Source of the DNA: Peltaster fructicola
Lineage: Eukaryota; Ascomycota; Dothideomycetes
Direction: 5' to 3'
Assembly (NCBI GenBank): GCA_001592805.2
Contig: CP051141.1
Span: forward strand, 558,001-622,000
DNA: 64,000 bases
A program made the translations under genes and the position numbers. The stretch's first letter is position 1. Every line of letters begins with the position of its first letter. This document shows, one piece after another, positions 45,769 to 53,287 of this stretch. The notes below the pieces were generated by a model. That model did not search any database, was not told the origin of the DNA, and saw nothing but the letters and a program-made list of their open reading frames with translations.

Positions 45769-46758
45769 TCAATCTTTCGGCAGACCATCAAGTAACAGTT
45801 GCAGCTGCTTCTCAATATTAATCATGCCAGTGATTAGGTTGTCGTCCTTGCCTTGACCAGGACACCAGGACGAATGAGCAAAGTCGATCAGCTTTAGGCG
45901 AAGGATTGGTGGTTCATCTTCATCGATCTCATCGTCCTCGTCCTGCTCTTCATCAGCACTGTCTTGCATCTGGCTGATCTGTAGTCCAGCCTGCTGCAAC
46001 AATCGTTCTTGAAGTGCTTCCGGATCACCCTCAAATACTATCAGTACTGATGCAGAGTAAAAGCGACTCTCCTTTGTCTCGAGAAGCATCCGAATGTCAC
46101 GCAGCTCGTCGAGTCCAGCAGCTATGATCTGCCTGCCAGTGATCAGCCTCTTAGGAGTGTTTGTGAGACTGTCAAAGTAGGTCTTGAATCCAGCAATCAC
46201 GGTTTCCTTGTCAAATCTTCTGCCGTACAGCTTGTCGTAAACGTCGTAGTCATTCGTGAGAGTGTTCCAAACTTTCATGCCTGCAATGCGGAAATTGAGA
46301 GAACCTGTGGTCGTCTCGCCGGCAACTTTGTCAAGGCGAGCTGCCTTCTCAGCAGCTGTGCCAGGTGCATACAATCTTGCGCCAAGCTTGAGGTCAATCA
46401 CGCTGGGATGAGTGAAGCCGTACTCGAGATTCTCCAGCACTACTGCGGTCTCAGCGGCAATCTTCTTGCCCTGTGACTTCGGAAGGTCTATGCCTGATGT
46501 CTTGACGAGCTCGTCTATGTGTCCTGCACTTGCTGGTGGTGAGGGAGGTCCAAGTGTGAGAGTGCCCATGAATGTTGGGATGAATTGGGCGAAGTCTGGA
46601 TGCTTGATGGAACTGTCTTGGTAGAAGTCAACTTCTGCCTGTGTACATGGCTTGACGACGACCTCGCCGGCTTCGTCTGAGAGGACTCCGTCATGGCCTG
46701 CAACGCTTGCGAAAGGCTGCAATGAGCTTTGATCCAGTGCTTGATTGTTCTCGTCCAT
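45769..46758 (-). CDS. ARG82: Inositol polyphosphate multikinase
   Basis: Single exon, 329 aa. Family motifs: PxxxDxKxG as HPSVIDLKLGARLY (about residue 118), SLNFRIAGMKVW, and LRLKLIDFAHSSW near the C-terminus, where the Asp binds metal. An acidic insert (SADEEQDEDDEIDEDEPP) just before the last motif is like the acidic loop of yeast Arg82/Ipk2. Known: it phosphorylates inositol trisphosphate to higher inositol phosphates in the nucleus and affects transcription, phosphate sensing and mRNA export. Full length for the family. Confidence 0.92.
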   Translation of the reverse strand: MDENNQALDQSSLQPFASVAGHDGVLSDEAGEVVVKPCTQAEVDFYQDSSIKHPDFAQFIPTFMGTLTLGPPSPPASAGHIDELVKTSGIDLPKSQGKKIAAETAVVLENLEYGFTHPSVIDLKLGARLYAPGTAAEKAARLDKVAGETTTGSLNFRIAGMKVWNTLTNDYDVYDKLYGRRFDKETVIAGFKTYFDSLTNTPKRLITGRQIIAAGLDELRDIRMLLETKESRFYSASVLIVFEGDPEALQERLLQQAGLQISQMQDSADEEQDEDDEIDEDEPPILRLKLIDFAHSSWCPGQGKDDNLITGMINIEKQLQLLLDGLPKD

Positions 46759-48057: not shown

Positions 48058-50052
48058 ATGCAGAACTCCAACGACCGACCACCAGAGATACTCATCACTG
48101 ATGCAACGGGCAATGCACAATCACTCGACAAACCTGAGGGCACAGTGGGCTACGAGCACACTCCATGCTCACAAATGTCTGCGATACAGGCAGTGGCGCC
48201 TTTCAATGAGGCTGACACCCGCCAAATCATATGTCAGGTCGAGTTCTATCTCAGCGATCAGAATCTACCCACCGACAAGCATCTCCTTGGGCTTACAGGC
48301 GGTGATGGCAACGGCGCTGTCAGTCTCAACCATATCTGCGGCTTTAGGAGGATGCGCAACTTCAAACCACATCGTGCCATCAAGGAAGTCCTTCAACAGA
48401 GTGCTGTCATAGACCTGATTGATGATGGCAAGAAAATCAAACGACGCTTCCCACTGATGATCCCGCTTCGTGTTGCTCCCGAGATCGACCTTGAGCGTGA
48501 CTATGTCGAAAGAACATTGGCAGAGAATCCTCACCTCACAAAGAACATGCTTAAGCCAACTGGCTTCGAAGAGTTCTACACCGATCCACCAATCTCACCA
48601 CAGCAGTACGAGCAGAACCGCAAGCTGTACGATCCAGACTTCAGCTTCACTACACGCATCGAGCATGCCGTTCGTCACTACCGTGCACGTCGCAAGATGC
48701 ACGTCAACACTCTGCAGGTCTTCGAGAAGTGGATGCAATTTGGTGGTATAGTCATGAACCCTCTCGTACCTGGTGGTGGAAAAGAAGAGTATGAGGGTCT
48801 GAGCAAGGTGGAGATTGCTGCCATGACCGAGACACATTCTGTCGATGACAGTATCCTAGACCACGAGGATGAGCACTACGTCGACTTCGAGCTGGTCGCT
48901 CTTGCGTTCTTGTCGACTGAGTTTCCTGCTCTTTGGCCGAACACACCAGCAAATGTCCACAACGTCTGCAACGTCATGGTCAACTTCCTCAACTTCCTAC
49001 TACACCATGATGCTTGTCCAGAATATGCCAAGCAGATCCTCTCTGCACGTCGAGCAGTGCATGAGGCTGAAGCAGACTTGTGCAAAGTGCCTGCTGCGGA
49101 CAAGAGTCTCCAATCAACTCATGGTTTCAACGCAGCTTGTTCTGTGCTTCATGCTGAGCAGTACGAGTCCTCTGCTGGTGGCTCGACATGGCTCACGCAG
49201 CATTCCCATGGCCTCAGTGTCGACGATGCTACTGCTATCTTCAAGACTGCGCTTGTGGCATTCGCAGATGAAGAGCAGCTTCCTGAGATCGAAGCACGCT
49301 TTGCAGAGCTTGATGTCGTCAAAGAGCGTCGTGCACTCTTACCTGCTGAGGGTACTGCGGCCCGAGCGGATGTCCGATCCAGCTCCTCAGTCAATGGGTC
49401 AGCATCTTCTGGAAGTCACAGTGCGTCGCCATACGAATGTCAAGGTCAGCAAGTTGACCACTCTGAAAACGGCAGTGTTCATCCTTCGACCGGAAGAGAG
49501 CAGACGACTCAGACCGAGCCCGAATCTAGTCTTAACTCCAGAAGCCCATTCTCGGTCATCCTCAGCGAGACCGTCGGTCTCGAAATCATTGGTCTGGAGG
49601 TAGCAAGCGACTATGCCTCAGCCATCTTCGATGCAGTCGCTGGCACCATCATACAACGCATGGGACGCATGCATTGCCGCAGGTGGACGGCACCGCTCGC
49701 TGTTCCTCAAGATTTACCTGCCAATCGTACACAATTGCCGAGCACACTAAACTTCATCGTTGACGAGAGCGTCTTGGAGCATTGCGAGATAGGTATGAAG
49801 CTCGAAGCTACCGTCAGACAGCTTGATATCGGTGTTTGTTGGTTGGATGAGATCGAGCGAGTTCATCCAAAGTTCTACACTACAATCCCAAACTTTAAGG
49901 TCGTGAAGCAGAGTCGTCGCGAGGCAGAGTTCCTGGAAGACTGGTTTGCTGCCAGGACTGAGTATGTAGTCGCGGCATCCAGCGAGCTTCACGATATGCC
50001 TACATCGGCAGCTGTCCTTGGAAGTGAGAGCCCTTCGCCTAGACAAGAGTAG
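48058..50052 (+). CDS. La-motif / Arb1 fusion (Argonaute siRNA chaperone subunit)
   Basis: One exon, 664 aa. Residues 50-135 are a La-type winged helix: QVEFYLSDQNLPTDKHLLGL, LNHICGFRRMRNFKPHRAIK and DGKKIKRRFPL, the usual La signature. Residues 165-345 match Arb1: FYTDPPISPQQYEQNRKLYD, RIEHAVRHYRARRKMH, KWMQFGGI, HYVDFELVALAFLSTEF and LLHHDACPEYAKQILSARRA. After a Ser-rich linker, EIGMKLEATVRQLDIGVCWL and VHPKFYTTIPN match the Arb1 C-terminus. Known: Arb1 with Arb2 forms the ARC complex that holds duplex siRNA on Ago1 in fission yeast heterochromatin silencing; La motifs bind 3' U-rich RNA ends. No RRM is seen. The fusion is in a single uninterrupted frame, so it is not a splicing guess. Nuclear RNAi function is inferred. 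Confidence 0.85.
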   Translation: MQNSNDRPPEILITDATGNAQSLDKPEGTVGYEHTPCSQMSAIQAVAPFNEADTRQIICQVEFYLSDQNLPTDKHLLGLTGGDGNGAVSLNHICGFRRMRNFKPHRAIKEVLQQSAVIDLIDDGKKIKRRFPLMIPLRVAPEIDLERDYVERTLAENPHLTKNMLKPTGFEEFYTDPPISPQQYEQNRKLYDPDFSFTTRIEHAVRHYRARRKMHVNTLQVFEKWMQFGGIVMNPLVPGGGKEEYEGLSKVEIAAMTETHSVDDSILDHEDEHYVDFELVALAFLSTEFPALWPNTPANVHNVCNVMVNFLNFLLHHDACPEYAKQILSARRAVHEAEADLCKVPAADKSLQSTHGFNAACSVLHAEQYESSAGGSTWLTQHSHGLSVDDATAIFKTALVAFADEEQLPEIEARFAELDVVKERRALLPAEGTAARADVRSSSSVNGSASSGSHSASPYECQGQQVDHSENGSVHPSTGREQTTQTEPESSLNSRSPFSVILSETVGLEIIGLEVASDYASAIFDAVAGTIIQRMGRMHCRRWTAPLAVPQDLPANRTQLPSTLNFIVDESVLEHCEIGMKLEATVRQLDIGVCWLDEIERVHPKFYTTIPNFKVVKQSRREAEFLEDWFAARTEYVVAASSELHDMPTSAAVLGSESPSPRQE

Positions 50053-50286: not shown

Positions 50287-51439
50287 ATGACGACCAGCTA
50301 CCTCAGAACCATACCTATCCGTGCACTGCGAACTATTCCAAGAATCAGTTCGATCTCCTCACAGCTCCAAACATCACGATCATTCGTTCGTACGATGGCT
50401 TCGATTCCAAAGACCATGAAGGGTGTCATCATCGAGAAGACTGGCGGCCGAGATGTACTGCAGTACAAGACTGATCTGCCAGTGCCAGAGCCAAAGGAAG
50501 GCGAGATTTTGGTTCACAACGACTATGTCGGCATAAACTACATCGACACGTGAGTAGAATCAGATCGTTAGCAGAGCATGACTCACTTCACCCAGTTACT
50601 TCCGCGAAGGAGCATATCCTGCACCACATATGCCCTACATCCTAGGACGAGAAGCCGAAGGTACCGTGGTTAAGGTGGGCAGTGGCAAGACCTACGGCTT
50701 CAAGGAAGGCGACAAGATCGTCATGCTGGCTCAACTGACCTACGCCGAATACACAGCAGCTCCCGCAGAGAAGGCCAGCAAGATTCCAGAGGGTCTACCA
50801 CCAAAGCTCGCCGCTGCTGCACTGCTACAAGGTCTAACCGCTCTGACTCTGATACGGGACGCCCACCATGTGCAGAAGGGCGACTGGGTTCTTGTACATG
50901 CGGCAGCAGGTGGTATGGGTCTGTGGCTGTGTCAGTTGCTCAAGGCCATCGGAGCGAACATCATCGGCACCGCTTCCACTGAGGAGAAGATCGCACTCGC
51001 AACTAAGGCTGGCGCTCAGCACATGATCAACTATAGCCACGAAGACGTCAAGTCGAAGGTCCTCGAGCTTACCAACAACAATGGCGTCGCCGTTGTATTC
51101 GATGGAGTTGGCAAGGACACCTTCGATACCTCTTTGGAGCTCGTAGCACGAAAGGGTAGTCTCATTTCATACGGCAATGCATCTGGTGCTCCAGCACCTC
51201 TGAACATCGCTCGTCTAGCAGCAAAGAATGCCAGATTGATGCGTCCGACACTGTTCAACTTCATCGCTACCGAGGAGGAGTTCAACGGCTACACACAGGA
51301 GCTCTTCGGCTTCTTGAAGGACAACTCGATCGATGTGCGCATTCACGAGGTGTATCCCTTGAGCGAAGTGGCAAGGGCACATGAGGATCTCGAGGGAAGA
51401 AAGACGACTGGTAAGCTTTTGTTGGATCCTAGCAAGTAG
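50287..51439 (+). CDS. ZTA1: Quinone oxidoreductase (zeta-crystallin-like), probable mitochondrial form
   Basis: Exons 50287-50549 and 50596-51439 (368 aa); the intron rejoins NYIDTYFREGAYPAPHMPYI, the classic substrate-site motif. The N-terminal 40 residues are basic and Ser-rich without acids (MTTSYLRTIPIRALRTIPRI), like a mitochondrial presequence. A second ATG (MASIPKTMKGV) would give the cytosolic form. The nucleotide-binding motif is VHAAAGGMGLWLCQLLKA. No zinc-ligand cysteines are seen, as in the zinc-free QOR branch of medium-chain dehydrogenases. Known: NADPH-dependent reduction of quinones and enones. Naming after yeast Zta1 is by general resemblance. Confidence 0.85.
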
Positions 51440-51559: not shown

Positions 51560-53287
51560 TTAGTAGCTTCTGCCAAACAGCACCCACATCTTGGCCCCGT
51601 TGTTGCATTTTGGGTTGATACAATGAGTGCCCTCCTTGATGTCCTCTGGCTGCTCGGCTGGGATACAGAGACTCTTGGCACCCATGCTTGGTGCTCTGGC
51701 GTCGACTTCTTGACCTTCAACGTTGCCAGCAGAGTCCTTCTTGATCTCGTCTTCGCACTCACCGCCAGCACAATGTGGAACGAGAATGACGTTCTTGGCG
51801 TTCAGCGTTGGTACAAAATCCTTCCAATCGCGGACGATCTTGCGGTGCGCAGCATACTCTTCGGTGGCCTTCTTCAGCATGCCAGCCTGGATCTCCTCAA
51901 GCACTTCTGGCACCTTGGTGGCTATGTCGGCGATTGGCATGGTGTCTTTGCCTTCTTGTGTACGACGAGAGAATGTGACGACCGACTTCTCGATGTCCTT
52001 TGGACCAATCTCAATGCGCAATGGCACACCCTTGAGCTCCCAGTCGTTGAACTTGAAACCCACATTGTAGCCCTCCCGGTCATCGACCTCAGCACGCACT
52101 CCAGCTGACTTCAAAGTCTTCTTAATCTTGTGTGCTTCGTCGTACAGATTCTGTCTAGCCTCATCAGACATCTTTGCTGACATGCCGACTGGGATCACAA
52201 TGACCTGGATGTTGGCGACACGTGGAGGAAGGACAAGACCTTTGTTGTCACCATGAATGAGGATCATAACACCAATAGATCGAGTGGTGAAACCCCAGCT
52301 GTTCTGCCAGACGTGCAGCTTCTCACGCTTCTCACCCTCCTTGAGTGATGGATTTGGATCCTCAACGGTGATGTCAAACATCTTAGCGAAGTGCTGGCCA
52401 AGACAGTGCGATGTGGCAGCCTGGATACCTCGACCGACACCCGGAATGAAGCCCTCGATCGTGGTTGTGTAATGTGCACCTGGAAACTGCTCGTTGACGG
52501 TCTTTTTGCCCTTGACGACTGGGACAGCGAGCAGCTCCTCGTAGATGGCAGCATAATGGTCGAGAATCTCAAGAACCTCCTTTCCAGCCTCTTCTTCGGT
52601 CATGTGTGCAGTGTGGCCCTCCTGCCACAGGAACTCTCTCGATCGTAGGAATGGAACAGCATGCTTGAACTCCCATCGCACGACGTTGTTCCACTGGTTC
52701 AGCTTCAATGGCAGGTCTCTGTGGCTTCGAATCTTCTTTGCATAGTAGCTGTACATGGCAGTCTCCGACGTTGGACGCACAGCCAGTCTCTTCTCGAGCT
52801 TTGTCTTCCCGCCTTCTGTGACCCAGGCGACCTCAGCTGCGAAGCCCTCGACGTGCTTCTCCTCACGCATCAAATTGGCTTCCGAGATGAACAGAGGGAA
52901 GTAAGAGTTCTCAACACCCATTGCCTTGATCTTCTTATCGAAGAAGTCGCGAATCTCTTCCCAGATCATGTACGATCTTGGCAGGTAGATGTAGCATCCT
53001 GGGACGTCGGTGAACTCCAGCAGCTCTGCCTTGAGTATGACCTGCTGGTACCATTCTGACAGATCATCCTCCTTGTTGACAGTGATACCGATAAGCTCTT
53101 TCTCGTCCTGCTTCTTCGCCTGTTGTGCCTTTGGCTGCTGACTTGGTTTCGACTTTGCTGCAGCCTTCTGGTCCTTGCGTTCCTTGTCTTGCTTCTTAGG
53201 CTTGGCGGTTGGTGCAGCCGACTCGGAGGTGGAGGGTTTGTTGATATTAAGATCGTTCATCTTTGCTTCGACGCCGTCGGCGGCCAT
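51560..53287 (-). CDS. Cytosolic prolyl-tRNA synthetase
   Basis: Single exon, 575 aa. A Lys-rich tail of about 60 residues (KKQDKERKDQKAAAKSKPSQ) precedes the class II core: LYLPRSY-type motif 1 (GCYIYLPRSYMIWEEIRDFF), VRPTSETAMYSYYAKKIRSH, motif 2 (WNNVVRWEFKHAVPFLRSRE, FLWQEGHTAH) and motif 3 (SWGFTTRSIGVMILIHGD). The anticodon-binding domain has LPPRVANIQVIVIPVGMS and a C-terminal zinc-like domain ending KMWVLFGRSY. This is the eukaryote/archaeal ProRS type. It ligates proline to tRNA-Pro in the cytosol. The basic tail may bind RNA. Convergent with the quinone oxidoreductase, about 120 bp apart. Confidence 0.94.
   Translation of the reverse strand: MAADGVEAKMNDLNINKPSTSESAAPTAKPKKQDKERKDQKAAAKSKPSQQPKAQQAKKQDEKELIGITVNKEDDLSEWYQQVILKAELLEFTDVPGCYIYLPRSYMIWEEIRDFFDKKIKAMGVENSYFPLFISEANLMREEKHVEGFAAEVAWVTEGGKTKLEKRLAVRPTSETAMYSYYAKKIRSHRDLPLKLNQWNNVVRWEFKHAVPFLRSREFLWQEGHTAHMTEEEAGKEVLEILDHYAAIYEELLAVPVVKGKKTVNEQFPGAHYTTTIEGFIPGVGRGIQAATSHCLGQHFAKMFDITVEDPNPSLKEGEKREKLHVWQNSWGFTTRSIGVMILIHGDNKGLVLPPRVANIQVIVIPVGMSAKMSDEARQNLYDEAHKIKKTLKSAGVRAEVDDREGYNVGFKFNDWELKGVPLRIEIGPKDIEKSVVTFSRRTQEGKDTMPIADIATKVPEVLEEIQAGMLKKATEEYAAHRKIVRDWKDFVPTLNAKNVILVPHCAGGECEDEIKKDSAGNVEGQEVDARAPSMGAKSLCIPAEQPEDIKEGTHCINPKCNNGAKMWVLFGRSY

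Follow-up and report, generated by a model that had tools for sequence, protein, structure and literature searches.

In a 64,000-nucleotide stretch of the Peltaster fructicola genome (contig CP051141.1, positions 558,001 to 622,000; below, the window), one gene encodes a protein that joins an N-terminal La motif to Arb1, and which we refer to as La-Arb1. Judged by its family, La-Arb1 is a subunit of the Argonaute small interfering RNA (siRNA) chaperone, ARC. The fusion is a conserved architecture of this known ARC subunit and is undescribed in the literature searched, although databases label it automatically. In the fungi that carry it, the La motif sits where most related Arb1 proteins have a lysine-rich tract, and we consider it quite plausible, if short of probable, that the motif grips the 3' ends of small RNAs in ARC, having replaced Arb1's basic tract.

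The first-pass annotation of the window had proposed that a La-type winged helix and Arb1 share one frame, and this is borne out by Pfam matches to both families within a 664-aa open frame. The La family (PF05383) matches residues 57-114 with 60.8 bits against a cut-off of 37.1 (E 1.1e-16), and the Arb1 family (PF09692) matches over both of its halves with 321.9 bits against a cut-off of 25 (E 9.4e-96; profile positions 3-267 and 255-397). By score, the domain at the N-terminus is a La motif and not an unrelated winged helix, and it has the La winged-helix fold. No RNA recognition motif (RRM) was found in La-Arb1 by Pfam at E values up to 1, where only the La and Arb1 families matched.

Three protein searches, in each of which about 8000 candidates were scored, gave 10, 13 and 121 matches (120 of the 121 listed). 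Pooling the matches listed, and excluding the La-related protein P0011, which lacks Arb1, gave 136 Arb1 relatives besides the protein of the window: 16 clusters with both domains (17 with the window's protein) and 120 relatives without La. The 16 clusters comprise 129 member sequences (member column summed), and domain positions in the other fused proteins confirm that La precedes Arb1, so that the order seen in the window is present in other genomes, where the annotation had suggested looking for it. Named fused clusters come from Aureobasidium (three), Cladosporium halotolerans, Taxawa tesnikishii, Dothideomycetidae sp. 11243 and Dothideomycetes sp. NU459. The three fused species looked up in the taxonomy, T. 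tesnikishii, C. halotolerans and Aureobasidium pullulans, belong to Dothideomycetidae, and P. fructicola itself is placed in Dothideomycetes, incertae sedis. A La-Arb1 protein of fungal type (P0008) also stands in nr under Quercus suber (cork oak); this entry looks like fungal DNA contaminating a plant assembly. The hosts of non-fused Arb1 are other Pezizomycotina, which we take to be Leotiomycetes, Lecanoromycetes, Sordariomycetes and others. Fission yeast Arb1 was absent from the matches listed, and no Pleosporomycetidae or Eurotiomycetes occurred among the named matches listed.

In a tree of 48 Arb1 cores, built on the sequence from the TGFE motif onward and comprising all 17 fused proteins and 31 of the 120 non-fused ones, the fused proteins (17/17) form a single clade with support of 100/100. 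The simplest reading of these sequences is that the fusion arose once and was then kept for a long time. The annotation had left room for two genes fused by an assembly error, and this is excluded because 16 other clusters carry the same two domains and the fused proteins form one clade. More broadly, an artefact of assembly or annotation, or a chimeric gene, is hardly credible given that the frame is also open throughout, and we rejected such an error at the join.

We then compared the region in front of the Arb1 core between fused and non-fused proteins. A profile of the 17 fused motifs found no La motif in the 120 non-fused Arb1s; as it scored them at E 2.9 or worse, the possibility that ordinary Arb1s hold a degenerate, hidden La motif was rejected. 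For the basic tract, we counted lysines plus arginines (K+R) in the richest 15 of the 45 residues preceding TGFE. This place was readable in 57 of the 120 non-fused proteins, in which the TGFE anchor is preceded by at least 30 residues; only these 57 bear on the swap, since the other 63 are partial or without that anchor (among them P0090, P0092 and P0115, whose PGFE near residue 200 is not the N-terminal anchor). K+R reached at least 7 in 54 of the 57 readable proteins (median 10) versus none of the 17 fused proteins (median 5, maximum 6); the cut-off of 7 K+R per 15 was picked after the values were known, and a cut-off of 8 gives 52/57. In most of the readable proteins the tract abuts TGFE directly, as in KKKKKKSSGKNKKPNP-TGFE, and it often holds 6-8 consecutive lysines or arginines (for example in P0019, P0020 and P0045). 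The three readable proteins without a tract are P0017, P0058 and P0066, and Monilinia laxa P0045, a congener of the latter two, has one. Because the tract is present in 54/57 non-fused and 0/17 fused proteins, the La motif takes the place of a former basic tract.

Human La holds UUU-OH ends in a pocket that we take to be formed by Q20, Y23, Y24, D33, F35 and F55; the residue letters were checked against the aligned human La sequence. The corresponding residues of La-Arb1 are Q, F, Y, D, H and F (Q60, F63, Y64, D73, H75 and F96). Across the fused motifs, Q20 is kept in 16/16 (P0016 is gapped there) and Y24 and D33 in 17/17 each, while position 55 is F in 16 and W in one, and position 23 is Y, F or W in 16 and H in one. 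As a set, the six columns of the pocket exceed random six-column sets from the La motif in conservation (P = 0.0065, 90 columns). Mean pairwise identity in the fused set is 52% for the La motif, 52% for the best part of Arb1, 38% for the C-terminal barrel of Arb1 and 23% for the linker. The La motif is thus as conserved as the best Arb1 part and more so than barrel and linker, and therefore looks to be kept by selection.

The likely source of the motif, judging by sequence relationships, is a copy of the first domain of a true La gene. The fused motifs share on average 43% identity with the La protein of P. fructicola itself (below, own La) versus 24-35% with seven other motifs of La or La-related proteins (LARPs), and in a La tree they group with own La at 99/99 against these seven. 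Own La falls inside the fused set in the best La tree, with weak support, and a single clade of fused motifs is not rejected (p-AU 0.264).

The proposed role draws on the step at which Arb1 acts. In fission yeast, Ago1 receives duplex siRNA within ARC, which requires Arb1 and Arb2, and these two proteins inhibit the release of the passenger strand (PMC5985592; review PMC3380556). Triman trims small RNAs bound to Argonaute, Cid14 and Cid16 add A and U tails to them, respectively, and Rrp6 degrades them (review PMC6232588). Given this loading, trimming and tailing, the La motif on Arb1 would stand at a step where the 3' ends of small RNAs matter, which suggests that these ends may be read at loading. 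In ordinary Arb1, the basic tract would be a sequence-blind contact with RNA; in the fused lineage, it would have given way to a structured 3'-end grip, copied from the first domain of the La gene. Within ARC, the La motif would hold a free small-RNA 3' end, either the 2-nt overhang of the duplex or that of a strand awaiting trimming or tailing, until the PAZ domain of Argonaute takes it over, and the grip would help to keep the duplex placed and shield the end from exonucleases. The grip may also favour U ends, and hence uridylated small RNAs, although we are less sure of this. The annotation had likewise suggested that the ARC subunit may read RNA 3' ends, as a possible quality check on siRNAs or their precursors. 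We regard as doubtful the more specific idea of a loading checkpoint in Dothideomycetidae, in which Arb1's La motif would recognise ends in ARC that are uridylated or untrimmed and would thereby sort small RNAs into those passed to the silencing complex and those discarded; we know of no such checkpoint in other fungi.

Several points weigh against the proposed 3'-end grip. At position 35, the fused motifs have His in 12 of 17 (Tyr in four, Phe in one), while eight comparison motifs have Phe in six, Tyr in own La and His in P0011, so that the affinity of the fused motifs for U ends may be altered. Eleven of the 14 invariant La columns lie outside the pocket, and pocket conservation is in part owed to the fold. 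In evolutionary terms, the 17 fused proteins represent a single event, and the counts for tract and pocket ignore the kinship of the rows. As for the source, a grouping of the fused motifs with LARP1 motifs has a p-AU of 0.083 and is thus not rejected at 0.05, in a La tree that holds one fungal La protein. In human La, the RRM, which La-Arb1 lacks, shares in binding the 3' end. The PAZ domain of Argonaute itself binds 3' ends, and for this reason a second 3'-end reader may be redundant beside it.

Some of these points could also be accounted for if the La motif were a sturdier general tether for RNA or other nucleic acids in place of the lysine-rich tract, without any reading of 3' ends. Motif and tract share the same place, His at position 35 changes the pocket in 12/17 fused motifs, and no RRM accompanies the motif, all of which would suit a tether. 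Such a tether, however, would need no pocket conservation, whereas Q20, Y24, D33 and F55 are almost always kept and the pocket set exceeds random La columns; we therefore consider it unlikely. The nearness of the motif to own La, a protein with La motif and RRM, would fit a motif that brings into RNA interference (RNAi) the usual ligands of true La, namely precursors with UUU-OH ends such as RNA polymerase III transcripts. The high-affinity UUU binding of true La also uses the RRM that La-Arb1 is missing, and fission yeast ARC holds duplex siRNA rather than polymerase III precursors according to PMC3380556, which makes this feeding role improbable.

The invariant positions outside the pocket, together with three matches to PAP-associated nucleotidyltransferases in the genome, would also be compatible with a protein-protein module that docks, for instance, an exonuclease or a tailing enzyme, RNA binding being secondary. 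Yet the RNA pocket belongs to the conserved set and no result here points to a partner, and we see a docking module as quite improbable. Small-RNA 3'-end gripping, our preferred reading, is directly testable, as point changes could disable the pocket of the La motif and leave Arb1 untouched. That a basic stretch was naturally exchanged for a domain whose mode of RNA binding is known suggests that Arb1 contacts RNA through its N-terminus in these fungi. If 3' ends are indeed read, the fusion would tie the loading of small RNAs to the surveillance by 3' trimming and tailing described in fission yeast (PMC5458512).

Compared with known systems, La-Arb1 resembles the Arb1 of ARC (PF09692, for example that of fission yeast) in matching the profile over both halves, in being found as one copy, and in having a host genome with Argonaute, Dicer-like, RNA-dependent RNA polymerase (RdRP) and Arb2 genes. 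It differs from related Arb1s, a comparison that covers relatives other than fission yeast Arb1 itself, in that a La motif at the N-terminus takes the place of the lysine-rich tract, and in having an insert at residues 431-496. With the non-fused Arb1s of Pezizomycotina it shares the core from TGFE onward; of the 57 of these that are readable (among the 120 listed), 54 have the tract and not a La motif. As to true La/Lhp1, which combines a La motif with an RRM, most fused members share the TGG..N loop of own La and most its basic R[RK]-x-PL end. La-Arb1 differs from true La by its missing RRM, by the Arb1 joined to it and by position 35, mostly His in the fused motifs and Tyr in own La.

In the annotation, the missing RRM was also held to set the protein apart from classic La and LARP proteins. 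The absence itself stands, but it is less distinctive than claimed, as yeast Slf1p and Sro9p likewise have a La motif without a known adjacent RRM; these are associated with mRNA and ribosomes and are nearest to LARP1 and LARP4, according to PMC4287443. La-Arb1 stands apart from Slf1p, Sro9p and LARP1 through its link to an Argonaute partner and through a motif that clusters with own La in the best tree. For human LARP1, complexes of the La motif with AAA and U6 have been solved, going by structure titles. Because such LARP1 complexes and RRM-less La motifs exist, RNA binding is compatible with the lack of an RRM. A further claim, that no Arb1 with a La domain had been described, holds for the open-licence PMC papers searched, none of which combined 'Arb1' with 'La motif', 'La domain' or 'La-type', or combined 'Arb1', 'Dothideomycetes' and 'RNAi' (several of the papers found deal, by their titles, with ABC proteins, and in PMC5913888 the search term forms part of a gene label); it does not extend to databases, where fused proteins carry the automatic label 'HTH La-type RNA-binding dom...'.

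The genome searched comprises 18,987,130 bases in five contigs of 2.77 to 4.89 Mb; in the published description (PMC7181583), the five chromosomes measure 2.77-4.89 Mb and total 18.99 Mb. In this genome-wide profile search, in which only the best candidates were scored, La-Arb1 was the sole Arb1 found. Two other places of the La family were found, one (locus L001) encoding a La protein in which Pfam, unlike in La-Arb1, finds an RRM, and the other a LARP1-like protein (L002) whose best sequence matches in PDB are S. pombe C1527.03 and LARP1. La-Arb1 is thus the one Arb1 seen and, since the genome has this separate La protein, no stand-in for it. One Arb2 was found via PF22749; a match to the Arb2-like family PF09757 was rejected as Arb2, as it sits on a histone deacetylase gene. 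Piwi matches lie in three genes, there are two RdRP genes, and paired RNase III domains occur in two genes, among other RNase III matches, one of these genes also having a Dicer dimerisation domain. At one locus (L027, G000:C2:599000-608000), a Dicer-like gene (RNase III pair, dimerisation domain, helicase C) adjoins, on the same strand, an Argonaute gene with N, L1, L2 and Piwi domains. The three nucleotidyltransferase matches (PAP_assoc) were not assigned to Cid14 or Cid16, and PF04857 (CAF1), the profile chosen for a Triman-like trimmer, matched two genes, likewise not assigned. The fungus retains Argonaute, Dicer-like and RdRP genes even though PMC7181583 reports that transposons account for 0.05% of its genome and that none is present as a full-length copy.

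Features of the La-Arb1 gene and its neighbours, in positions of the window
Feature	Position	Strand	Basis
La-Arb1 coding frame, uninterrupted, 664 aa plus stop	48058..50052	+	
La motif (winged helix), residues 50-135; Pfam core 57-114	48205..48462	+	
Span of the six 3'-end pocket positions (Q60, F63, Y64, D73, H75, F96)	48235..48345	+	
Linker, residues 136-157, poorly conserved (mean pairwise identity 23%)	48463..48528	+	
Arb1 domain, N-terminal and helical part, residues 160-415	48535..49302	+	Pfam and whole-genome profile search
TGFE motif, where the conserved Arb1 part begins	48559..48570	+	
Low-confidence insert, residues 431-496	49348..49545	+	
Arb1 domain, C-terminal part (second profile stretch)	49489..49902	+	whole-genome profile search
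Predicted five-strand barrel, OB-like, residues 497-612; match weak	49546..49893	+	
Neighbour: inositol polyphosphate kinase	45769-46758	-	
Neighbour: zinc-binding dehydrogenase family protein	50582-51436	+	
Neighbour: prolyl-tRNA synthetase	51560-53284	-	

A sequence search of solved structures returned no Arb1 relative, only KaiC at E 1.5 or worse. The insert is without a counterpart in nearly all other fused proteins (mean aligned fraction 0.03 over pairs), and P0002, the nearest relative of La-Arb1, has a longer insert at the same place. The genes flanking La-Arb1 are ordinary.
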